DNA of 64,000 nucleotides from Proteocatella sphenisci DSM 23131 (GTDB taxonomy: Bacteria; Bacillota; Clostridia; Peptostreptococcales; Filifactoraceae), in assembly GCF_000423525.1 (NCBI RefSeq), contig NZ_AUID01000008.1:1-64000 (forward strand), in the 5' to 3' direction. A program made the position numbers and the translations under genes. The notes under the pieces were generated by a model. The model saw nothing but the letters and a program-made list of their open reading frames with translations, was not told the origin of the DNA and ran no database searches. Each line of letters opens with the position of its first letter. Positions within the stretch are counted from its first letter, which is position 1. Positions 1 through 35,138 of the stretch are shown in pieces.

Positions 1-1
1 G

Positions 2-898
2 AAGCTGAGAAGCGATGCAAAAGTAATGGCAGCATATGCAAACAAGCTGCTTTCTGGAGCAGACCTGTTTCCAGCATCAGAAGAAGGTTATTTTGAAAGA
101 GGGATCAGGCACCAGGTTTGGAGACAAGACGGCAAGATAGCAGCAAAAAGAGGAGTAGAGATGCTCATTAAGAAGCTTAACAACGAAGATTATCAGACAG
201 AACTTATTATACCAGAAAAAGAACTTGTTCCAGTGGCGCCGCCCATAAAAGATCTTTCAAAAGCGAGAATAGCACTTCTTAACACAGGAGGAATAGTACC
301 AGTAGACAACCCTGATAGAATACAGTCAGCCTCAGCTACAAGATGGGGAAGATATTCAATAGAAGGAATAGAAAGGCTCGAGAGTGGCAAATACAAGACC
401 ATACATGCAGGATTTGACCCTGCAGCAGCAGATGCAGATCCAAATGTAATAGCACCTGTAGACGCACTCAGAGTGCTTGAAAAAGAGGGTAAATTTGGTT
501 CACTTCATCCATATTTCTACACTACAGTAGGAACAGGGACTACTCAGGCAGAAGCATCAAGGATGGCGATAGAAATTCTGGAGCAGCTTGAAGAAGATAA
601 TGTAGACGGAGTAATAATGGTTTCTACATGAGGGACCTGCACACGTTGCGGAGCAACGATGGTAAAAGAAATAGAAAAAGCAGGTATGCCTGTAGTTCAC
701 ATGTGTAACATAGTTCCCGTGTCAGAAACTGTAGGAGTAAACAAGATAGTGCCAACAATATCTATACCGTATCCACTTGGAAACCCTAACACATCAAAAG
801 AAGAACAGTGGAAACTCAGATACCACAGAGTAAGCGTGGCCCTTGATGCACTTACATCAGATGTAGATCAGCAGACAGTTTTCAAAGTTAAAATATAA
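2..898 (+). CDS. grdI: Betaine/glycine reductase component B, selenoprotein beta subunit (3' part)
   Basis: This is the selenoprotein subunit of a Stickland-type reductase (component B), which forms a Schiff-base-independent substrate complex and passes a carboxymethyl group to selenoprotein A, finally giving acetyl phosphate. The frame is open from the left edge, so the N-terminus (roughly 140 residues by family length, about 435) lies outside. An in-frame TGA at 629-631 is followed by Gly-Thr-Cys-Thr-Arg-Cys-Gly-Ala-Thr-Met, the conserved U-x-x-C-x-x-C site of GrdB/GrdF/GrdI, so TGA is read as selenocysteine and the frame continues to TAA at 896-898. About 298 residues are visible. Glycine (GrdB), sarcosine (GrdF) and betaine (GrdI) versions share this motif; the betaine assignment is inferred from the carnitine-to-betaine genes just downstream. 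The family is certain, the substrate is not. Confidence 0.88.
629..660 (+). promoter_or_regulatory. Selenocysteine UGA codon and bacterial SECIS-like hairpin
   Basis: The UGA at 629-631 is followed by a perfect 6-bp stem, CGTTGC (644-649) and GCAACG (653-658), around a GGA apical loop (650-652). Its apex is about 18 nt from the UGA, as expected for a bacterial SECIS that recruits SelB. The hairpin lies inside the coding sequence and encodes the conserved Arg-Cys-Gly-Ala-Thr stretch. The role is inferred from position and from the family. Confidence 0.82.
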
Positions 899-934
899 GT
901 AAACTATTTCAATTTAAAACTCAGGAGGTATACC

Positions 935-1810
935 ATGAACAATGAAGTAATAATAACATGTGCGATTACAGGGTCTGGGGACTCAGCTAACAAGAGTCCT
1001 AACGTGCCGGTAACACCAGAAGAAATTGCAGCATCTGCAGTAGCTGCGGCTAAAGCAGGAGCGTCTGTGGCTCACGTTCACGTCAGAAACCCAGAAACAA
1101 GAGGTTTCAGTAGAGATGTAAAACTATACCAAGAGGTTGCAAAGCTCATAAGAGAGAGTGGAGTAGACATGATACTTAACATTACCGCGGGTATGGGTGC
1201 TGATTTCGTACCTGATGAAGAAAATCCAAATATGGGCGGACCAGGTTCAGATATGATAAGCCCTGCAGAAAGAGTAAGGCACATAGAGCTTATAAAGCCA
1301 GATATTTCAACTCTTGATTGTGGGTCCATGAACTATGCAACAAGCGCATACATAGCTACTATGGATATGCTAAGAGAGACAGCAAGAAGAATCCAGGCAG
1401 CTGGAGTGAAGCCAGAAATAGAGGTTTTTGAGCTAGGGCACATATGGCAGGCAAAACAGCTTATGAAAGAAGGACTGATTGATCCAGATCCAATGTTCCA
1501 GCTGTGTATGGGCATACCATATGGTGCGGAAGCAACTACAGATAATATGGTAGCAATGGTAAATGCTCTTCCAAAAGGGGCAAACTGGGGGTCGTTTTCT
1601 ATAGGAAAGATGCAGATGCCTTGGGCAGCTCAGTCGGTTCTTCTGGGTGGAAATGTAAGAGTTGGGCTTGAAGATAATATATATCTTGGAAAAGGTCATT
1701 TTGCAACGAATGAAGAACTTGTTTTAAATGCCAGAGAAATTGTTGAAAGAATGGGCGCTAGAATACTAAATCCGGAGGAAGCAAGAATAAAACTTAAGCT
1801 TAAAAAATAA
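935..1810 (+). CDS. BKACE family beta-keto acid cleavage enzyme, probable dehydrocarnitine cleavage enzyme
   Basis: A 291-residue DUF849/BKACE protein. The family is made of zinc TIM-barrel enzymes that condense a beta-keto acid with acetyl-CoA and release acetoacetate plus a new acyl-CoA. The metal-binding His-x-His is present in AHVHVRNPE (His47, His49), and the C-terminal VRVGLEDN block (Arg242, Glu246, Asp247) matches the family's catalytic Arg and metal/substrate Glu. Residue numbers differ from Kce but spacing and order agree. It sits between a betaine-reductase-type selenoprotein and an L-carnitine dehydrogenase-like gene, so the natural substrate is most likely 3-dehydrocarnitine, giving betainyl-CoA and acetoacetate. 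A 3-keto-5-aminohexanoate role (lysine fermentation) is less likely because no kam/kdd/kal genes are nearby. The ATG follows a good AGGAGG site. Confidence 0.85.
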   Translation: MNNEVIITCAITGSGDSANKSPNVPVTPEEIAASAVAAAKAGASVAHVHVRNPETRGFSRDVKLYQEVAKLIRESGVDMILNITAGMGADFVPDEENPNMGGPGSDMISPAERVRHIELIKPDISTLDCGSMNYATSAYIATMDMLRETARRIQAAGVKPEIEVFELGHIWQAKQLMKEGLIDPDPMFQLCMGIPYGAEATTDNMVAMVNALPKGANWGSFSIGKMQMPWAAQSVLLGGNVRVGLEDNIYLGKGHFATNEELVLNAREIVERMGARILNPEEARIKLKLKK

Positions 1811-1878
1811 TTCGGGTGGCTTTAAGGCTAATTGCAGTCTAATTTGTTAAAATATTCATTAAATGGAAGGAGCAAATA

Positions 1879-2880
1879 ATGTATCTTGGGAAAAATGAAA
1901 TAAAAACAGTTGCTATAATTGGAACAGGGGTTATAGGTGCAGGATGGGCAGCAAGATGCCTTCATAGAGGTGTGGATGTATGTGCATATGATCCAGGAGC
2001 TGATGCAGAAGCTCTTCTTAGAGAAGTTGTAGAAAATTCAGAGCAGGCAATGGAAAAAATAGTTGACGTACCTGATGCCAAAAAAGGTAAACTTACATTT
2101 GTAAAATCTATAAAAGAAGCAGTTGAAAATGCAGATTATATTCAGGAAAGTGTGCCAGAAGTAGAAACAATAAAAATACCTACTTTAAATGAAATAGATA
2201 AATATGCTAAGGCTAATGCTATTATAGGAACAAGTACTTCGGGTCTTCTTCCTAGCAGACTTCAGTCAGAACTAAAACATCCAGAAAGATTTGTTGTAGC
2301 GCATCCATTCAATCCTGTCTATCTGCTTCCACTTGTAGAAGTACTTGGAGGAGAAAAAACAGACAAAGGGGCTTGTGATACAGCTGCAGATTTTTATAGA
2401 TCTATAGGAATGAAGCCTCTTATGGTTAGAAAAGAAATAGATGGATTTGTTGCAGACAGACTTCTTGAAGCATTATGGAGAGAGATTCTTCACCTTGTTA
2501 ACGATGATGTTGCAACAACTCAGGAAATTGATGATGCCATAATCTATGGGGCTGGACTAAGATGGGCAATAATGGGAACTAATATGACATATTATCTGGC
2601 AGGCGGAAAAAATGGGATGAGACATTTTATGGAGCAATTTGGTCCTGCACTCAAATTACCCTGGGCTCATGTAGAAGCACCCGAGCTTACAGATGAGCTA
2701 ATCGACAAGATGGTTGATCAGACAGCGGAGCAAGGAGCTGGAAAGAATCTTCGTGAGTGGGAGCAGCTTAGAGATAACTGCCTGGTTTCTATAATGAAAG
2801 CTCTTTCTGAATTTGATCATGGAGCAGGCAAGATAATTAAGGAAGATCTTGCTATTCAGACTGAAAAACTGGGCCTATAA
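1879..2880 (+). CDS. lcdH: L-carnitine dehydrogenase (3-hydroxyacyl-CoA dehydrogenase family)
   Basis: A 333-residue single-unit 3-hydroxyacyl-CoA dehydrogenase-type protein, close to the usual length of carnitine 3-dehydrogenases. The N-terminal Rossmann fold shows GTGVIGAGWA (Gly15, Gly17, Gly20). The catalytic His142 in AHPFNPVYLL and Glu154 have the 12-residue spacing of the family's His/Glu dyad. Residues of the C-terminal domain (GLRWAIMG, near 226-233) resemble the carnitine dehydrogenase group rather than fatty-acid beta-oxidation enzymes, which are shorter (about 280) and sit with crotonase genes. Expected reaction: L-carnitine + NAD+ to 3-dehydrocarnitine + NADH, feeding the preceding BKACE enzyme. 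It is 68 bp downstream of that gene with a GGAAGGAG site. Confidence 0.83.
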   Translation: MYLGKNEIKTVAIIGTGVIGAGWAARCLHRGVDVCAYDPGADAEALLREVVENSEQAMEKIVDVPDAKKGKLTFVKSIKEAVENADYIQESVPEVETIKIPTLNEIDKYAKANAIIGTSTSGLLPSRLQSELKHPERFVVAHPFNPVYLLPLVEVLGGEKTDKGACDTAADFYRSIGMKPLMVRKEIDGFVADRLLEALWREILHLVNDDVATTQEIDDAIIYGAGLRWAIMGTNMTYYLAGGKNGMRHFMEQFGPALKLPWAHVEAPELTDELIDKMVDQTAEQGAGKNLREWEQLRDNCLVSIMKALSEFDHGAGKIIKEDLAIQTEKLGL

Positions 2881-2921
2881 TAAAAGTTGAAATAGTATTT
2901 ACCATATCTTGATAATTGTTA

Positions 2922-2970
2922 CACTGGCGTACAGTATCTGGAATTTTTCGGAAATCTCTGTATGCCAGTG
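2922..2970 (+). other. Long intergenic hairpin inside the carnitine operon
   Basis: A 13-bp stem pairs 2922-2934 with 2958-2970, with one G-U pair and a 23-nt loop. It is followed by an A-rich stretch and the ribosome binding site of the 46-residue peptide, not by a U-tract. It is therefore unlikely to be a simple terminator. A processing site, an mRNA-stabilising element or an attenuator between the enzyme and transporter genes fits better. Confidence 0.6.
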
Positions 2971-2993
2971 AAAAATAGAAAGGAAGGTATTTC

Positions 2994-3134
2994 ATGGGTG
3001 AGATAGTAGTATCTATATTTATAGGCGGATGGATGATGCTTGTTGGAGTATTTATGCATTGGAGTCTTAGCAAGGAAGAGAAGAAATACAGACAAGAAGA
3101 GCTCACAGCAGAGGCTTCTGCAAATGAAAATTAA
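2994..3134 (+). CDS. Small membrane protein encoded beside a sodium:solute symporter
   Basis: A 46-residue peptide preceded by AAAGGAAGG. Residues 4-24 form one hydrophobic segment with Gly-Gly-Trp-Met-Met, and the C-terminal half is charged (KEEKKYRQEE). It is immediately upstream of the SSS symporter gene (21 bp), in the same orientation. Short single-span proteins in this position are known beside several bacterial SSS transporters and are annotated as symporter small accessory proteins; the biochemical role is unclear. The good Shine-Dalgarno site, the membrane segment and the position support a real gene. Confidence 0.72.
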   Translation: MGEIVVSIFIGGWMMLVGVFMHWSLSKEEKKYRQEELTAEASANEN

Positions 3135-3155
3135 TGGGATTATAGGAGGTATAAT

Positions 3156-4760
3156 ATGAATATATATTTAATAGGAGTTATTATAAGTATTATAGTCTAC
3201 ATAATTATAGGTAATTACGCAGGAAAAAGCGTAAAAGACATAGATGATTATTACGTAAGTGGAAGAAATGCAACGACAATACTTATAGCAGGAACTCTAT
3301 TCGCATCAATGCTGAGCACTAATGGTTTTATGGGTGATACAGGCTGGGTATATGACGGAAATATCACCAAACTCGTTATGCTGAATGTCCTTTGTGGTTC
3401 GGGATATATAATTGGACCTATGTTCTTTGGAAGATATCTGAGAAGATCACAGGTTGTAACAATGCCTGAATTCTATGGGAAAAGATTTAATTCAAGGAGA
3501 ATACAGTCATTTGCAGGTATAACTACAGTTATATCTCTTACGGCATATCTGCTGGCAGTTACCCAAGGAACAGCACTGTTAATGCAGCAGCTTACTGGAC
3601 TTTCTTTTGGGATATGTCTGGTGATTTCATTTATATGTTTTACATCATTCACAATGTATTCAGGATCATCAGGAGTTATCTTGACAGATACTCTTATGTT
3701 TATGATTTTTATATCGGCTACTATTGTTGCAGGCCCTTTTATATTTCAAGCGGCAGGCGGAGTTTCCAGTGTTATACCAAATGTAATTTCGGATCCGGCT
3801 ATTTCTCATGACATGCTATCATACCATGGAATTCTGGGACAAGGAGAGAGCGCTCTTGATTCAATGATATATGCGATAACTATGGGAATTGTGTGGCTTA
3901 TAACTGTTTCTGTAAGTCCCTGGCAGGCCAGCCGTAACCTCATGGCAAAAAATGAGCACGTAACCTTCAGGGCAGGAGTTGTTGCGTGTATATGTACTAC
4001 AGTATTTCTGACCTTCTTATATTTTATCGCGGTAGCAATCAAACTCATCAATCCAGCGATAAGTCCGAGTGAGCAAGTTATAATATGGTCATGTTTCAAT
4101 GTAATGCCAAAATTTGTGGGAGTTCTTGTTCTTACAGGAGTAATGGCTGCGGGCCTATCGTCAGCATCTACTTTCCTTTCTGTTGTTGGTTTCAGTCTTA
4201 CAAATGATATTTACGATTTCAATTTTAAAGATGATAAGGCTAAACTTAGAATGAGCAGACTGACAATGCTTATAGTTGGAGTTATTGCTCTTGGCATAGC
4301 ATATATAATGCCACCTTCAATAAGGGTTATATCATGGTTTGCAAGTACTATAATAGCAGCATCTTGGGGACTTGTTGCATTTATGAGTGTATGGAGTAAA
4401 AAACTTACAGAAACAGGAGCTTTTTATGGGATGGTTACAGGTTTTGTAGTGTTCTTCGTTGGAAAAATGGCCAAAGAATTCATGGGTCTTCCTCTTAACA
4501 ACATACTGGATCCTTTCTTCCTTGCACTGCTGTTTGGATATATATCTATTATGATAGGTAATAAAAAAGGGACCATAGGTAAAGAAGAGAAAATATTTAT
4601 AAATATGATGCTTACTGTTCCAGAAGAAGAAAAATCAGCAGAACTCTTCAAGAGAGATAAGCTTTATGCAAAAGTACTTATAGCTTCTGGGGCACTAATG
4701 ATGGTTATACTCATAGTATTCTGGGCTATTCCATATAACAACTTTATGGGAGTCATGTAA
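3156..4760 (+). CDS. Sodium:solute symporter (SSS family), probable carnitine/betaine uptake
   Basis: A 534-residue integral membrane protein with about 13 hydrophobic segments and the SSS (PanF/PutP-like) layout: an early DDYYVSGR motif (near 30-37) typical of the family, FASMLSTNGFMGDTGW in the first repeat, and VMAAGLSSASTFLSVVG (near 330-346), which matches the Na+-site serines of TM8. The ATG follows AGGAGGT. The neighbours suggest that it imports the substrate of the pathway, either carnitine or betaine. This is inference; most betaine/carnitine carriers known are BCCT or ABC type, so an SSS protein here is notable. Substrate cannot be read from sequence. Confidence 0.82.
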   Translation: MNIYLIGVIISIIVYIIIGNYAGKSVKDIDDYYVSGRNATTILIAGTLFASMLSTNGFMGDTGWVYDGNITKLVMLNVLCGSGYIIGPMFFGRYLRRSQVVTMPEFYGKRFNSRRIQSFAGITTVISLTAYLLAVTQGTALLMQQLTGLSFGICLVISFICFTSFTMYSGSSGVILTDTLMFMIFISATIVAGPFIFQAAGGVSSVIPNVISDPAISHDMLSYHGILGQGESALDSMIYAITMGIVWLITVSVSPWQASRNLMAKNEHVTFRAGVVACICTTVFLTFLYFIAVAIKLINPAISPSEQVIIWSCFNVMPKFVGVLVLTGVMAAGLSSASTFLSVVGFSLTNDIYDFNFKDDKAKLRMSRLTMLIVGVIALGIAYIMPPSIRVISWFASTIIAASWGLVAFMSVWSKKLTETGAFYGMVTGFVVFFVGKMAKEFMGLPLNNILDPFFLALLFGYISIMIGNKKGTIGKEEKIFINMMLTVPEEEKSAELFKRDKLYAKVLIASGALMMVILIVFWAIPYNNFMGVM

Positions 4761-4789
4761 AACTTATATAAACATTTTAAGGAGGGCAT

Positions 4790-6841
4790 ATGAATTTAGA
4801 ATCATTAATGGCTCCAAAAAGCGTAGCGCTCATTGGGGCTTCAAATAAACCGGGATCACTGGGACATGATATGGTGCAGATGATAAAAAGAGGATCTTAC
4901 AGTGGAAATATTTATCCTGTAAATCCTAAATATGATGAGGTTTGCGGCATTAAATGCTACCCAGACCTGGAATCTATAGGAGGAAATGTAGATCTTGCTG
5001 TATTTTGTGTAGCAGCAAAAAGGCTTCCTGAACAGATAGACATTGCAGTTAAAAATAAAGTGAAATCACTTACCATATTTGCAAACTGTGTAGTTCAAGG
5101 CGATGAAGGATTTGAAGATAGAATAATTGAAAAATGCCTCGATGCAGGCATACCGGTATTAGGACACAATGCGATGGGATATTATAACAATGATCTGGAT
5201 CTTAGAATATGCGGATTTGAGGCTCCAGATGAAGGGGTAAAAGGGAATATTTCTATGATATCACAGTCCGGATCTGTTTTTAGCACCATATGTCACAACG
5301 AGCCACAGTTAAAATTCAATCTTGCTGTAGCAACTGGCACAGGCCATATAACGAGTCTTGAAGATTACATGATTTATGCACTTGAACAGAAGACAACAAA
5401 GGTAATGGCGGTATATATGGAGTCATCGAGAAAACCGGAGAGATTTGTCGAAGCGCTGAAGCTTGCAAAAGACAAAAAAACACCAGTTGTTCTCATGAAA
5501 GTTGGGAAATCAGAACTAGGAGCAGAGTTTGCAAAATCTCATACTGGAGGACTTGCGGGGGATGACGATGCTATTCAGGCAGTGCTTGATCATTATGGGG
5601 TAATAAGAGTGGACAGTTTGGAGGAGATGGCAAACACACTGGCAATTTTCAGCTTCTTCCCTGAGATTCCAAAAAAGGGAGGGCTGGTAGCTATAGCAGA
5701 TTCTGGAGGAGAACGGAATCTTCTGGCTGATGATGCTGAATATGTGGGAATTGAATATGCAGAGCTTTCTGAAGACACAATGGAAAAACTTGAAAATATT
5801 CAAGAGTTTGGGCAACACGCAAGCAATCCACTTGATCCATGGGGAACTGGAATAGATTTTGAAAAAATATTTGGTGACTCTATGTCTTGCATGCTCCGTG
5901 ATGAAAATGCAGCTATAGGACTTATATCTCAGGATCTGCGGGATGGATACTACCTGTCTGAAGGGTGTGTACAGGCACTTGAGCAAGGCAGCAATGAGGT
6001 TGGTAAACCAGTAGTTTTTCTTACGAATCTGGGAGGAGTAAGAAGAAAAGAGCTTACCGAAAAAATCAATCAAATTCCAGCTCCAGTACTTACTGGAACT
6101 AAGTCAGCGCTTAAAGCAGTAAAGAATTATCTTGGATTCAGAGATTTTGAATATGAATCAAGTAAAATTGATAAGCTGAAAATAAATGATGAGATTTCAG
6201 AACTTATAAAAAACAAGAGTGTTCTTAAAGAAACTGACGCGATGACAGTTTTAGAAAATCTCGGGTTTCCTGTGGTCAAAGCAGTAGAAATAAATTCTGC
6301 AGATGACTTGGAAGCTAAAAAAGGACTTTATCAATATCCTCTTGTTTTAAAAACAGCGGAAGAAGGCATACTGCATAAGGCAGATGTTGGAGGAGTAAAG
6401 CTTAGAATTGCGAATTTTGAAGAGCTTGAAGATGCATATGCTGACATGTCTGAAAGACTTGGGGAAAAATGTATAGTTGCACCTATGATATCTTTCGACA
6501 ATGAAATAATTCTGGGTATGAAAAATGATGAGACCTTTGGGCCAATGGTAATTGTTGGGGCAGGGGGCATATATACAGAGCTTCTTAAAGATAGAATAGT
6601 TATACTTCCAGAAGCATCTGAAAAAGAAATAAGAGAGAAACTGAAAACACTTAAGACTTATAAACTTTTTACGGGATTTAGAGGCAGTGAGAAAGCGGAT
6701 ATGGATCTGCTTATTGAAATAATCATGAGATTCTGCAAGATAGTGAAAACTCTTGGTAGCGAAATATCAGAAATAGATATAAATCCTGTCGCAATAAAAG
6801 GAAATCATATAGTGGCCCTGGATGCACTCATGATAAAATGA
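4790..6841 (+). CDS. ADP-forming acyl-CoA synthetase (fused alpha-beta, NDP-forming)
   Basis: A 683-residue protein with the domain order CoA-binding (about 1-130), succinyl-CoA-synthetase-like (about 150-450) and ATP-grasp (about 470-683). It belongs to the acetate-CoA ligase (ADP-forming) family, which makes ATP from an acyl-CoA, ADP and phosphate. SHTGGLAGDD (His251) matches the phosphorylated histidine loop, and LHKADVGGV (His529) the second histidine site of the ATP-grasp half. In this operon it could turn betainyl-CoA into betaine with gain of ATP, or equilibrate acetate and acetyl-CoA for the BKACE step. A good AAGGAGGG site precedes the ATG. It is the last gene before a strong terminator. 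Confidence 0.85.
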   Translation: MNLESLMAPKSVALIGASNKPGSLGHDMVQMIKRGSYSGNIYPVNPKYDEVCGIKCYPDLESIGGNVDLAVFCVAAKRLPEQIDIAVKNKVKSLTIFANCVVQGDEGFEDRIIEKCLDAGIPVLGHNAMGYYNNDLDLRICGFEAPDEGVKGNISMISQSGSVFSTICHNEPQLKFNLAVATGTGHITSLEDYMIYALEQKTTKVMAVYMESSRKPERFVEALKLAKDKKTPVVLMKVGKSELGAEFAKSHTGGLAGDDDAIQAVLDHYGVIRVDSLEEMANTLAIFSFFPEIPKKGGLVAIADSGGERNLLADDAEYVGIEYAELSEDTMEKLENIQEFGQHASNPLDPWGTGIDFEKIFGDSMSCMLRDENAAIGLISQDLRDGYYLSEGCVQALEQGSNEVGKPVVFLTNLGGVRRKELTEKINQIPAPVLTGTKSALKAVKNYLGFRDFEYESSKIDKLKINDEISELIKNKSVLKETDAMTVLENLGFPVVKAVEINSADDLEAKKGLYQYPLVLKTAEEGILHKADVGGVKLRIANFEELEDAYADMSERLGEKCIVAPMISFDNEIILGMKNDETFGPMVIVGAGGIYTELLKDRIVILPEASEKEIREKLKTLKTYKLFTGFRGSEKADMDLLIEIIMRFCKIVKTLGSEISEIDINPVAIKGNHIVALDALMIK

Positions 6842-6850
6842 ATATAAGTT

Positions 6851-6893
6851 AAAAAACAAAAAATGCTGGTTTTACTGGCATTTTTTGTTTTTT
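6851..6893. terminator. Bidirectional intrinsic terminator closing the carnitine/betaine operon
   Basis: A perfect 16-bp stem pairs 6851-6866 with 6878-6893 around an 11-nt loop. The outer part is A-tract on one side and T-tract on the other, so it can act in both directions. It separates the synthetase gene from the tetR promoter. Confidence 0.88.
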
Positions 6894-6908
6894 AACATAA
6901 GTATAATG

Positions 6909-6936
6909 TTGAAATGTGGGCATTTAGTGTTATAAT
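6909..6936 (+). promoter_or_regulatory. Sigma-A-type promoter of the tetR-trpS-lspA-tdh run
   Basis: TTGAAA at 6909-6914 and TATAAT at 6931-6936 are separated by 16 bp. They lie between the terminator and the TetR-family gene. Confidence 0.65.
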
Positions 6937-6975
6937 TAAGATGAAATAAAAATTTCAGTCGGAGGATATATTTAA

Positions 6976-7662
6976 ATGGAAATAGATATAAATAATGCAG
7001 AATCGAAAATGAGTGACAAAAAATATATACAAAAAAAAAGGATTATTAAATATTTTATAGATGCTGTAAAACAAATCCAGGAAGATGAAGGGCTCAAAGC
7101 TGTAACAATTAGAAAGGTAGCAGATATAGCAGGTTATAACAGTGCTACGCTTTATAATTATTTTGAGAATTTAGACCACCTTCTTTTGTTTGCGTCCATG
7201 GATTATTTTCAGGAATATGTGGATCAGCTACCTAAACGCCTCAAGGATGTAAGGGACCCAATTCAAAGATACATTATTGTGGCAGAATGTTTTTACAAGA
7301 ATTCATTTCTTCATCCACAAAATTTTTACTCTATTTTTTTTGCAAAGGTATCGAATTCAATAGATGAATATATTCGTGATTATTATGAATTGTTTCCTAT
7401 TGACACCTCGGAGATGGATGAAGACATAGCGACCATGGTAAGAGAAACTGATTTATTCTCAAGAGGCAGCATATCGATTAAAAAGTGCATAGACGAGGGT
7501 TTTTTTACCAAAGAAGAAGGTATAGAACTTAATGATATAATGATATATGTATATGAGAGCTTCCTTTACAGGGTTATTCATGATGAAATTGACCCTGCTG
7601 AGGCTAATGAAAAAATAAATAAATACTTGTCAAATATAATCAAAAAGTATAGAATTAAGTAA
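6976..7662 (+). CDS. TetR/AcrR family transcriptional regulator
   Basis: A 228-residue TetR-type repressor. The N-terminal helix-turn-helix is visible as AVTIRKVADIAGYNSATLYN (about 41-60) followed by YFENLDHLL, the classical TetR pattern. The C-terminal ligand domain is divergent and does not reveal the effector. It has its own promoter after the terminator, reads away from the carnitine/betaine operon, and is followed after 17 bp by trpS. It may control the upstream catabolic genes, itself or both; the sequence does not decide. A second in-frame ATG at 7009 is possible, but the SD GGAGGA precedes 6976. Confidence 0.85.
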   Translation: MEIDINNAESKMSDKKYIQKKRIIKYFIDAVKQIQEDEGLKAVTIRKVADIAGYNSATLYNYFENLDHLLLFASMDYFQEYVDQLPKRLKDVRDPIQRYIIVAECFYKNSFLHPQNFYSIFFAKVSNSIDEYIRDYYELFPIDTSEMDEDIATMVRETDLFSRGSISIKKCIDEGFFTKEEGIELNDIMIYVYESFLYRVIHDEIDPAEANEKINKYLSNIIKKYRIK

Positions 7663-7679
7663 ACAAATAGGAGGATTAA

Positions 7680-8684
7680 ATGTCAGATAAAAAAATTATA
7701 TTCAGTGGTATCCAACCTTCAGGAAAAATAACACTCGGAAACTATCTTGGGGCGCTTTCTAACTGGGTTGAGCTTCAAGATGAATATCAGAATTATTATT
7801 GCATAGTTGATATGCATGCTATTACAGTTCCCCAGATTCCAAAGGATCTAAGAGAAAATACACTTCTTCTTCTTTCTCAGTATATTGCCTCGGGGATTGA
7901 CCCAAACAAGAGCACTATTTTTATACAGTCCCATGTGCCACAGCATGTTGAGCTTTCATGGGTGCTACAGAGCATGACTTATATGGGAGAACTTGGAAGG
8001 ATGACCCAGTATAAGGACAAGTCGGCTAAAGGTGGAGAGAATTTAAACTCGGCACTGTTCACCTACCCTGTGCTCATGGCATCTGATATACTTCTTTATT
8101 CGACTGACCTTGTGCCAGTAGGAGAGGATCAAAAACAGCACCTTGAGCTTTCCAGAGACCTTGCGCAGAGGTTTAATAACAGATATTCAGATACTTTTAA
8201 AATCCCTGAAGTTTACACTCCAAAAGTTGGAGCAAGAGTAATGAGTCTTCAGGATCCAAGCAAAAAAATGAGCAAGTCAGATGAGAATGAAAATGGATAC
8301 ATCAGCCTTATGGACAGTAATGATGTAATCATAAAAAAAGTAAAAAGAGCTGTCACAGATTCAGTGGGTATTGTGAACTATTCAGATGAGCAACCAGGAA
8401 TAAAAAATCTTCTTGATATATGCTCTAAATTTGAAAAGGTATCACCTCAGGATCTTGCGCTCAGATATCAGGGAAAAGGCTATGGCGAATTTAAAAGTGA
8501 TGCAGCAGAAATTATTGCACAAGGTTTAAGACCAGTAAGAGAAAAAGCTAATGAATATATGAACGACAAGGCTTATCTTGAAGAAATATATTCTCAGGGA
8601 GCACAAAAAGCTGAAGAAGTTGCTTCAAAAATGCTAAGTAAAGTATACAAAAAAATCGGTTTTATACCTAAAAAAAGAATATAG
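7680..8684 (+). CDS. trpS: Tryptophanyl-tRNA synthetase
   Basis: A 334-residue class I aminoacyl-tRNA synthetase that charges tRNA-Trp. QPSGKITLGNYLGA (near 12-25) is the HIGH-equivalent region of TrpRS and KMSKS is at 196-200. The length is typical of bacterial TrpRS (about 330). AGGAGG sits 5-10 nt before the ATG. No T-box leader can fit in the 17 bp behind the TetR gene, so tryptophan-responsive control by tRNA, common for Firmicute trpS, is absent at this position. Confidence 0.97.
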   Translation: MSDKKIIFSGIQPSGKITLGNYLGALSNWVELQDEYQNYYCIVDMHAITVPQIPKDLRENTLLLLSQYIASGIDPNKSTIFIQSHVPQHVELSWVLQSMTYMGELGRMTQYKDKSAKGGENLNSALFTYPVLMASDILLYSTDLVPVGEDQKQHLELSRDLAQRFNNRYSDTFKIPEVYTPKVGARVMSLQDPSKKMSKSDENENGYISLMDSNDVIIKKVKRAVTDSVGIVNYSDEQPGIKNLLDICSKFEKVSPQDLALRYQGKGYGEFKSDAAEIIAQGLRPVREKANEYMNDKAYLEEIYSQGAQKAEEVASKMLSKVYKKIGFIPKKRI

Positions 8685-8703
8685 TCAGGAGAAATGGATA
8701 TAT

Positions 8704-9156
8704 ATGACTTATATATTAATAACTTTTCTGCTTCTAATACTTGATCAGCTTACAAAAATGTGGTCAAGGAACGTACTGGCATTTAGAGGAAGTATTCCTG
8801 TGATACCTGGTTTTTTCCATCTTTCATATGTAGAGAATCGTGGAGCGGCTTTTGGTATACTTTCTGGAAAAACCACGCTCTTTCTTGTGGTGACGATTTT
8901 TGCCATTGTTCTCCTTATGTATTATGCAAGAAAGCAAAGCAGTAATGACTTTTCAGGATTTTTAAATATTGCAGTGACATTCATAATTGCAGGTGCTCTT
9001 GGGAATCTGATTGACAGATCTATGTATGGATTTGTTACAGACATGATAGACTTCAGGGGTTTGTGGAAATTTGTTTTTAACGTTGCAGACTGCTATGTCG
9101 TATGCGGAACTGCAGCTTTGATTTTCTATATATTGAAATTTGATAACAATAAATAA
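8704..9156 (+). CDS. lspA: Lipoprotein signal peptidase (signal peptidase II)
   Basis: A 150-residue inner-membrane aspartyl protease with four hydrophobic segments; it cleaves prolipoprotein signal peptides after lipidation by Lgt (present at 38352). NRGAAFGI (45-52) is the conserved loop, and the catalytic aspartates are in GNLIDR (Asp104) and FNVADC (Asp129). The length is normal. It follows trpS by 19 bp in a shared operon. Confidence 0.95.
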   Translation: MTYILITFLLLILDQLTKMWSRNVLAFRGSIPVIPGFFHLSYVENRGAAFGILSGKTTLFLVVTIFAIVLLMYYARKQSSNDFSGFLNIAVTFIIAGALGNLIDRSMYGFVTDMIDFRGLWKFVFNVADCYVVCGTAALIFYILKFDNNK

Positions 9157-9177
9157 AATTATTAAGGAGAAGATAAT

Positions 9178-10140
9178 ATGAAAAAAATACTCGTAACAGG
9201 CGGACTTGGACAGATAGGCACTGAACTGATAATGACGCTAAGAGGTGTTTATGGTAATGAAAATGTAGTTGCAAGCTCAATTGAAGCGGATTGTCCTGAC
9301 TTTATAAAAGAAACAGGAGTATATGAGTCAGTTGACGTATTAGATGCAAAAAAACTTGGAGAAGTATGTAGAAAACACGGTATAAACCAGATTGTGCACC
9401 TTGCTGCAATACTTTCTGCTGTTGGTGAAGCAAAGCCTCAACTTGCATACAATATAAATATGAATGGGCTGTTCAATGTCCTTGAAGTTGCCAGAGAGAC
9501 TGGGGCTGGTGTATTTACACCGAGTTCAATTGCAGCATTTGGACCATCTACACCTAAAGATATGACGCCTCAGGACACAATTCAAAGACCTACTACTATG
9601 TACGGGGTAACAAAGGTTGCAGGAGAGCTCCTATGTGATTATTACAACCAGAGATATGGTGTTGATACAAGAGGGGTAAGATTTCCAGGACTTATATCAT
9701 ACAAGGCACTTCCAGGTGGAGGAACTACAGATTATGCAGTGCATATATATTATGAAGCAATCAAGAACAGAAAATATACTTCTTATATAGCGGAAGGGAC
9801 AAGTATGGATATGATGTATATGCCAGATGCCATAAAATCTATTTTGGATCTTATGGAAGCGGATTCTTCAAAACTTATTCATAGGAACGCATTTAATGTA
9901 GGGGCTATGAGTTTTGCACCAGAAGACCTTGCGGCTGAAATTACAAAGCATATTCCTGACTTTAAACTAGATTATGCAGTAGATCCAGTAAGACAAAAAA
10001 TTGCGGATTCATGGCCAAATTCACTTGATGATAGTTCAGCAAGAGCAGAGTGGGGATGGAAGCCAGAGTATGATATTGCAAAGATGACATCGGATATGCT
10101 TGATAAACTATCTATAAAACTTGGTAAATCCTACAAATAA
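9178..10140 (+). CDS. L-threonine 3-dehydrogenase, SDR (epimerase-like) type
   Basis: A 320-residue extended short-chain dehydrogenase. GGLGQIG (8-14) is the NAD-binding glycine motif and Tyr142-x3-Lys146 (MYGVTK) the catalytic pair. The sequences PGLISYKALPGGGTTDYA and WPNSLDDSSARAEWGW are hallmarks of the SDR-type threonine dehydrogenases rather than UDP-glucose epimerases. Reaction: L-threonine to 2-amino-3-oxobutyrate with NAD+, which a Kbl-type lyase can split to glycine and acetyl-CoA. In a Stickland fermenter this supplies glycine for glycine reductase. It follows lspA by 21 bp and ends the operon. Confidence 0.88.
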   Translation: MKKILVTGGLGQIGTELIMTLRGVYGNENVVASSIEADCPDFIKETGVYESVDVLDAKKLGEVCRKHGINQIVHLAAILSAVGEAKPQLAYNINMNGLFNVLEVARETGAGVFTPSSIAAFGPSTPKDMTPQDTIQRPTTMYGVTKVAGELLCDYYNQRYGVDTRGVRFPGLISYKALPGGGTTDYAVHIYYEAIKNRKYTSYIAEGTSMDMMYMPDAIKSILDLMEADSSKLIHRNAFNVGAMSFAPEDLAAEITKHIPDFKLDYAVDPVRQKIADSWPNSLDDSSARAEWGWKPEYDIAKMTSDMLDKLSIKLGKSYK

Positions 10141-34950: not shown

Positions 34951-35138
34951 AAGGCACCTGGGATGTGCGTTATAGTTTTATTAAATTCAACCGACATATA
35001 TTATAAGGGATTCTGATAGTATTTTTATGGATGACGGGCCTCCTTGCGAGGATATCAGAAATAAAGATCAAGAAACCCACCTGAGGAAGCTCGGGGGTGA
35101 ATTTTCTGGACTAGACGGCATCTTGGGTGTTTTTTTTG
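34951..35138 (+). ncRNA. ssrS: 6S RNA
   Basis: About 185 nt with 6S architecture. The 5' strand CACCTGGGATG (34955-34965) pairs with CATCTTGGGTG (35119-35129) as an 11-bp closing stem with three G-U pairs; these end sequences (GGGATGTGCG and GACGGCATCTTGG) resemble the GAGATGTTCGC and GGCGGCATCTCGG ends of enterobacterial 6S. A central arm pairs TTCTGATA (35011-35018) with TATCAGAA (35053-35060) and carries a CCTC/GAGG tip; another small hairpin lies at 35078-35099. A T-tract follows the closing stem as terminator. 6S RNA binds the housekeeping RNA polymerase and down-tunes promoters in stationary phase. The call rests on structure and ends, not on a covariance search. Confidence 0.78.

Follow-up and report, generated by a model that had tools for sequence, protein, structure and literature searches.

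Contig C7 (NZ_AUID01000008.1) of the 2.41-Mb draft genome of Proteocatella sphenisci DSM 23131 begins with six genes that probably belong to a dedicated operon for the fermentation of L-carnitine alone to trimethylamine and two acetate. The stretch analyzed, referred to below as the window, comprises the first 64 kb of this contig, window base 1 being C7 base 1. The six co-directional genes, which extend from base 2 to base 6841, encode in order part of the betaine reductase selenoprotein GrdH, a BKACE-family keto-acid cleavage enzyme, L-carnitine 3-dehydrogenase (CDH), a 46 amino acid peptide, an SSS-family symporter and an ADP-forming acyl-CoA synthetase (ACD). An earlier reading of the window (the original prediction) had proposed a carnitine-to-trimethylamine route coupled to a betaine reductase; all six genes it described were recovered in place, the families of all but the peptide were confirmed by profile searches, and the coupled route is supported by gene content, gene order, conservation, diagnostic residues and accessory genes. 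This support is genomic in kind, and it is from the genes that we infer the substrates, the direction of the ACD reaction, the stoichiometry and transport. Our proposed additions are the ACD step and a redox-closed stoichiometry. The features of the operon are the following:

2..898, plus strand: grdH, betaine reductase selenoprotein B, C-terminal 298 residues (PF07355, 287.6 bits; best NCBIfam model NF040795)
629-631 and 632-669, plus strand: selenocysteine codon TGA and the SECIS_4 element that follows it (Rfam RF01990, 59.4 bits, gathering score 38)
935..1810, plus strand: BKACE, proposed 3-dehydrocarnitine:acetyl-CoA cleavage enzyme (PF05853, 313.9 bits)
1879..2880, plus strand: CDH, L-carnitine 3-dehydrogenase (NF005471, 425.9 bits, cut-off 414)
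2994..3134, plus strand: 46 amino acid membrane peptide, conserved before the SSS gene in relatives, without family match
3156..4760, plus strand: SSS-family sodium:solute symporter, proposed carnitine importer (PF00474, 121.6 bits)
4790..6841, plus strand: ACD, ADP-forming acyl-CoA synthetase, proposed betainyl-CoA synthetase run towards ATP (PF13380, PF13607 and PF13549)

In operon order from grdH, the intergenic gaps measure 36, 68, 113, 21 and 29 bp.

Betaine reductase genes and their accessory functions

The in-frame TGA of grdH is followed by codons for GTCTRC, giving the product a UxxCxxC motif, and a SECIS element is likewise present in L040, L173, L133 and L134. Compared with the NCBIfam models, the GrdH fragment of the window scores 544 bits against betaine_GrdH (NF040795), 361 against sarcosine GrdF and 332 against glycine GrdB; the full-length betaine_GrdH cut-off is 775, which the fragment does not reach, and the intact GrdH of L173 exceeds it with 824.6 bits.

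A search of the genome for the GRDB family matched in four places: the window gene on C7, contig C12, contig C18 and the first bases of contig C8. The last of these supplies the left part of the operon:

C8 bases 1-86, minus strand: N-terminal 28 codons of grdH (family search and alignment with intact orthologues)
C8 bases 3325-9685 (L113), minus strand: butyrate-type set crt-hbd-thl-bcd-etfB-etfA, upstream of BCCT-grdI-grdH

Read on the minus strand, C8 carries crt-hbd-thl-bcd-etfB-etfA, a gap of 281 bp, a BCCT transporter gene, 23 bp, grdI, and grdH up to the contig end. The grdI gene was named by position and similarity: its product matched no GrdI model, the best match being sarcosine_GrdG with 336.7 bits, far under the cut-off of 780. 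An alignment with intact orthologues shows that the grdH pieces on C8 and C7 cover separate parts of the gene, with about 110 codons (manual count) missing between them. Because no sequence overlap joins the two contigs (blastn), we place them side by side on the strength of the complementary grdH pieces and of synteny. Three genomes break inside grdI or grdH, at the starts of C7 and C8, at the start of L037 and at the end of L038; the break in Marinisporobacter may be explained by another grdI-grdH contig of that genome, which over 437 bases shares 88% identity with the end of L038. Within the butyrate-type set, thl, bcd and hbd were checked against NCBIfam and crt, etfB and etfA were named by resemblance; bcd matches acryloyl-CoA reductase best, though below the cut-off of that model. 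The thiolase of this set could serve the acetoacetate branch discussed below.

The original prediction had named a selenoprotein betaine reductase as the first gene, an assignment supported by the best GrdH model, the SECIS element and the neighboring grdI on C8. It had also held that a plain glycine reductase to the left would undo the proposed link, and what lies to the left is BCCT-grdI-grdH. A plain glycine reductase next to the carnitine genes was rejected, as the TIGR01917-positive GrdB sits on C12 and the operon partners are grdI and grdH. The separate glycine reductase cluster of C12 comprises a glycine riboswitch, a grdX-like gene (named by position), trxB, trxA, a GrdE/GrdG-type gene, grdA (which we take to be so from its selenocysteine motif), grdB, grdC and grdD. 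Its GrdB reaches 814.8 bits with TIGR01917 (cut-off 602) from a gene with an in-frame TGA, and GrdC, GrdD, TrxA and TrxB all exceed their model cut-offs. The fourth GRDB match, at approximately 43144-43680 of C18 (L115), is weak (55 bits), has one internal TAA and possibly belongs to a D-proline reductase type locus.

Other functions that the route would draw on are encoded elsewhere in the genome: the selenocysteine machinery selD-selA-selB on C4, acetate kinase on C8 (546.8 bits) and a 3-oxoacid CoA-transferase A/B pair on C2. selC was not found in the four stretches scanned for it, the rest of the genome lying outside that scan. A genome search returned no MttB-family match, and demethylation of betaine by an enzyme of that family was accordingly rejected as an alternative.

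Carnitine dehydrogenase and the keto-acid cleavage enzyme

The CDH exceeds the cut-off of the L-carnitine dehydrogenase model NF005471 (414) in the three loci tested, with 425.9 bits in the window, 447.2 in L173 and 433.5 in L040. The BKACE has the sequences HVHVR at residue 47 and GLEDN at residue 244, which contain the functional HxH and ED motifs of this family. Its highest NCBIfam match is Lys_ferment_KCE (NF052387), with 239.5 bits. A role as the Kce enzyme of lysine fermentation could draw on this match and on a lysine-class riboswitch that precedes two of the related operons (see below), but we regard it as highly improbable: the score lies far below the cut-off of 382, the partner gene exceeds the carnitine dehydrogenase cut-off, and betaine reductase genes adjoin. 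With the cut-off of NF052387 unreached, lysine Kce was rejected as the identity of this BKACE. The genome encodes a second BKACE, 35% identical to the first and, with 311.6 bits, also below the NF052387 cut-off; it accompanies a 3-hydroxyacyl-CoA dehydrogenase and other genes in another keto-acid cleavage cluster, at bases 1272-6210 of C9 (L117).

Conservation of the gene order in relatives

Searches for CDH in four sets of genomes matched 44 of 59 relatives, 2 of 391 genomes from the class, 2 of 398 from the phylum and 10 of 393 from the order; these sets overlap, and the genome itself is counted in each. The E-value was 1e-3 for the 59 relatives, where matches were mostly weak and to other 3-hydroxyacyl-CoA dehydrogenases, and 1e-60 for the other sets. 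Scanning the named genome contigs that carry a CDH gave 76 loci. Eight loci group as one clade in the trees of both CDH (79 rows) and BKACE (69 rows), each time with support of 100/99: the window, L037 from the same genus, L038 from a Marinisporobacter metagenome-assembled genome (MAG), L171, L173 and L040 from uncultured Clostridia, L041 from an Oscillospiraceae MAG, and L039 from Psychrobacillus soli.

The gene order of the original prediction recurs within this clade, in that grd, BKACE and CDH genes are linked in five of the eight loci, which represent four genera and three families of one order, and grdI and grdH are both complete in two of them (L040 and L173). In L173, grdI-grdH-BKACE-CDH-peptide-SSS-ACD lies unbroken on one contig, and L040 has the same order up to its contig end within the ACD gene. 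The contig of L037 starts with the last 42 codons of grdH, followed by BKACE, and in L038 the ACD gene is directly followed by grdI, of which the contig includes the first 85 codons up to its end; the grd genes thus precede BKACE in four loci and follow ACD in one. The SSS symporter is encoded in seven of the eight loci, L039 being the exception. The 46 amino acid peptide, for which profile searches gave no Pfam or NCBIfam family match (a single further match being at chance level), is kept at 45-83% identity in L037, L038, L040, L171 and L173, and is presumably a small partner of the symporter. In L171 and L041, a 3-oxoacid CoA-transferase A/B pair comes after the genes of the operon, in keeping with the pathway. 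An Abhydrolase_3 alpha/beta hydrolase is encoded in or just 3' of the operon at L171:12730-13701 and L039:14881-15873, and one might speculate that it frees carnitine from O-acylcarnitines.

The linkage could also reflect two uncoupled neighboring modules, in which grdI and grdH together with the BCCT transporter serve to reduce imported betaine, and BKACE, CDH and ACD make betaine mainly as an osmolyte or carbon source. The BCCT protein encoded beside grdI indeed exceeds the glycine betaine BCCT cut-off (654.5 versus 650), the L041 genome carries grdI-grdH-BCCT apart from its carnitine genes, and Psychrobacillus has the carnitine half alone. We nevertheless find two uncoupled modules improbable, given that grd genes adjoin in five of the eight loci and do so on either side of the carnitine genes, and that grdH and BKACE lie close enough together (36 bp apart in the window, about 20 bp in L173) to suggest a single transcript.

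An ADP-forming synthetase in place of a thioesterase

The ACD is present in all eight clade loci, at 52-100% identity in the six first scanned and in agreement with these in L171 and L173. For comparison, a hot-dog thioesterase HMM was grown from five thioesterases that follow CDH in other Bacillota, and six-frame segments were scanned with it. A thioesterase is fused to CDH or encoded within 6 kb of it in 42 of the 76 loci outside the clade, none of which has an ACD of at least 40% identity within 6 kb. The eight clade loci showed the converse: the sequence read around their genes yielded no hot-dog thioesterase. PF13607 is matched in 16 of the 59 relatives (the genome itself included), over cut-off in 11, and in none of the nine same-family genomes outside the genus is it matched over cut-off.

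The protein has the CoA-binding, ligase and ATP-grasp domains of its superfamily as well as the phosphohistidine, His251. In an alignment with 7cm9 and other structures, His251 aligns with His292 of the ATP-dependent dimethylsulfoniopropionate (DMSP) lyase DddX, and Trp351 with Trp391 (residues counted manually), a residue described as making a cation-pi contact with the sulfonium of docked DMSP-CoA (PMC8163506). The position of Trp351, in a column read by hand, is occupied by V, G, I and T in the 4-hydroxybutyrate, 3-hydroxypropionate, 2csu and 4xyl enzymes; two further matched chains, both protein acetyltransferases, lie outside this comparison. Among the ACDs longer than 400 amino acids from carnitine loci, 26 of 27 have the Trp (five from the clade and 21 of 22 distant ones, L109 lacking it), and the motif is also present in the ACDs of L171 and L173.

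Another role for the ACD seems unlikely, be it that of a general acetate-forming synthetase or the forward activation of carnitine or another quaternary amine, with a thioesterase encoded elsewhere releasing betaine. In its favor, the named models that the ACD matches best are acid-CoA ligases, all far below cut-off. On the other side, the genome has acetate kinase and no PF13607 match besides the ACD, and Trp351 agrees with DddX and not with the four acid-type enzymes. Activation would be consistent with the distant ACDs of proteobacterial carnitine operons, which share the Trp and sit with acyl-CoA dehydrogenase and hydratase genes, and with the crt and acyl-CoA dehydrogenase genes upstream of the BCCT gene on C8. 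No such dehydrogenase or hydratase gene, however, occurs in the stretches read of L038 to L041, L171 and L173, and no thioesterase was found beside the genes of the eight clade loci, which argues against release by a separate enzyme. The original prediction had included a release of betaine among the steps of the route; the ACD is indeed present, and we refine this step in that the enzyme probably conserves the energy of betainyl-CoA as ATP rather than simply setting betaine free.

Proposed pathway and energetics

In the fermentation that we propose, L-carnitine would be taken up by the SSS symporter and oxidized by CDH with NAD+ to 3-dehydrocarnitine. BKACE would use acetyl-CoA to cleave this intermediate, forming betainyl-CoA and acetoacetate. 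The ACD would then convert betainyl-CoA, ADP and Pi to glycine betaine, ATP and CoA, taking the place of the thioesterase of the aerobic pathways. Betaine reduction by GrdHI is established chemistry: it yields trimethylamine and acetyl phosphate and relies on GrdA and GrdC/D as shared partners, which here, like thioredoxin, would come from the glycine reductase locus. Acetate kinase would form ATP from acetyl phosphate, and acetoacetate would probably return to acetyl-CoA via 3-oxoacid CoA-transferase and thiolase.

The net reaction would be carnitine + H2O to trimethylamine + 2 acetate (C7H15NO3 + H2O = C3H9N + 2 C2H4O2). The NADH formed by CDH would correspond to the two electrons spent in betaine reduction, provided that NADH can feed thioredoxin, so that a Stickland-like pair of oxidation and reduction would be contained in one molecule. 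By calculation, the yield would be approximately 2 ATP per carnitine, one from betainyl-CoA and one from acetyl phosphate, the acetoacetate branch being neutral.

Several observations weigh against this interpretation. With regard to the reductase, grdH is split by an assembly gap between contigs without a joining overlap, and the GrdH of L040, at 751.8 bits, is just under the betaine_GrdH cut-off of 775. No grd gene is present in the 20 kb read of L171, and Psychrobacillus soli has BKACE-CDH-ACD in a genome without a GRDB match, so the carnitine half can stand alone; since the CDH and BKACE of Psychrobacillus fall inside the clade, its lineage has probably either lost the grd genes or taken part in a transfer of the carnitine half. 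The BKACE is under the cut-off of every substrate-specific NCBIfam model that it matched, and its substrate therefore rests on context. As to the ACD, 34 of the 76 loci outside the clade have neither a recognized thioesterase nor a close ACD (some being cut by contig ends), which makes the mutual exclusion of the two incomplete, and the L040 contig ends inside the ACD gene, leaving the downstream genes unseen. Some carnitine operons with a thioesterase encode distant ACDs (24-31% identical) that also have the Trp, which therefore supports an onium substrate and not betainyl-CoA or the ATP-forming direction; the loop of these distant ACDs is longer, and their Trp column depends on an alignment with gaps. 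CDH should give NADH, whereas NADPH is the common donor for thioredoxin reductase, and the CoA-transferase genes lie outside the operon of the window. Finally, a lysine-class riboswitch before two of the operons is unexpected for a carnitine pathway.

A lysine-class riboswitch in two operon leaders

This RNA precedes the carnitine operons of Marinisporobacter and Psychrobacillus:

L038:8364-8550: lysine-class aptamer RF00168, leader of the Marinisporobacter carnitine operon (75.7 bits, gathering score 30)
L039:7460-7596: lysine-class aptamer RF00168, leader of the Psychrobacillus carnitine operon (58.8 bits, gathering score 30)

A leader is readable in seven of the eight clade loci, L037 starting inside grdH; searches of the window, L113, L040, L041, L171 and L173 gave no match to this RNA at the gathering score. 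The aptamer core pattern occurs nowhere else in 175 sequences (1.88 Mb, overlapping copies included, of which L168 and L172 are copies of L038). The five-way junction is visible in the folds of both aptamers, and both deviate from the Rfam consensus in a shortened P2 internal loop, AGAG for AGuG in J5/1 and a changed first P3 pair; in L039, P2 and P3 are cut down to short hairpins. The MAFFT alignment of the two leaders is poor. Against shuffles, the aptamer fold is moderately stable in L038 (z -2.71, 4 of 200 as good) and more so in L039 (z -3.44, 0 of 200).

Both leaders also contain a hairpin followed by a T-run, with predicted energies of -18.4 kcal/mol in L038 and -21.6 kcal/mol in L039, and in each leader none of 500 mononucleotide shuffles folded as low. 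Folding of the L038 leader shows a long hairpin before the T-run, although a simple terminator scan called no terminator there. The hairpin takes the 3' strand of P1 as its 5' arm, so a bound ligand should keep the terminator from forming; the RNA is therefore predicted to be an ON switch, which fits a catabolic operon. A bolder joint account, which we consider possible but not likely, is that carnitine is a self-sufficient Stickland substrate handled by one operon and that, in Marinisporobacter and Psychrobacillus, a derived ON riboswitch senses carnitine or a related quaternary amine, and not lysine.

Neighboring features of the window

The gene that follows the operon encodes a putative regulator:

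6976..7662, plus strand: TetR-type regulator (PF00440)

A TetR gene adjoins the operon also in L037, L038, L040 and L041. Between ACD and this gene, an AT-rich hairpin with a T-run was seen by eye at approximately 6850-6892 and was not called by the terminator scan, and a promoter-like site lies at 6909-6936, in a region that is no richer in such sites than shuffled sequences. Farther along, the window contains an ordinary 6S RNA at 34952-35133 (84.1 bits).

Comparison with known systems

A route from carnitine through betaine to trimethylamine is already drawn as a possibility in reviews. The original prediction knew of no description of the present arrangement, and none of the open-literature matches listed describes a carnitine-betaine reductase operon, subscription journals and preprints being mostly outside their scope. 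The operon would give this route definite genes in single organisms and indicate where energy could be saved. In addition, grdI and grdH beside BKACE-CDH-ACD may serve as a marker for finding anaerobic trimethylamine producers, and the harvesting of ATP from betainyl-CoA would be a new use of the ADP-forming synthetase family.

The operon shares with the aerobic carnitine catabolism of Pseudomonas and Sinorhizobium the conversion of carnitine via 3-dehydrocarnitine and betainyl-CoA to glycine betaine by CDH and BKACE (PMC12482172). It differs in having an ACD where many other loci have a thioesterase, and in the adjoining selenoprotein betaine reductase. With Stickland GrdHI it has in common grdI-grdH with selenocysteine, SECIS and the UxxCxxC motif, as well as GrdA, GrdC/D and thioredoxin in the genome, but here the acceptor would be made intracellularly from carnitine by the same operon, and donor and acceptor would come from one molecule.

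The bbu pathway of Emergencia timonensis is likewise an anaerobic route from carnitine to trimethylamine and proceeds via gamma-butyrobetaine and BbuA (PMC8364193). It uses gamma-butyrobetaine and an acyl-CoA dehydrogenase-like lyase, and the window operon, the only part compared, has no such gene. DddX resembles the ACD in belonging to the same superfamily and in having the phosphohistidine and a Trp that contacts the onium group (PMC8163506). In contrast to DddX, which activates its substrate and then eliminates, the proposed ACD would only swap CoA for phosphate, probably forming ATP, and no residue of the window ACD clearly corresponds to Phe435, the second aromatic residue of DddX.

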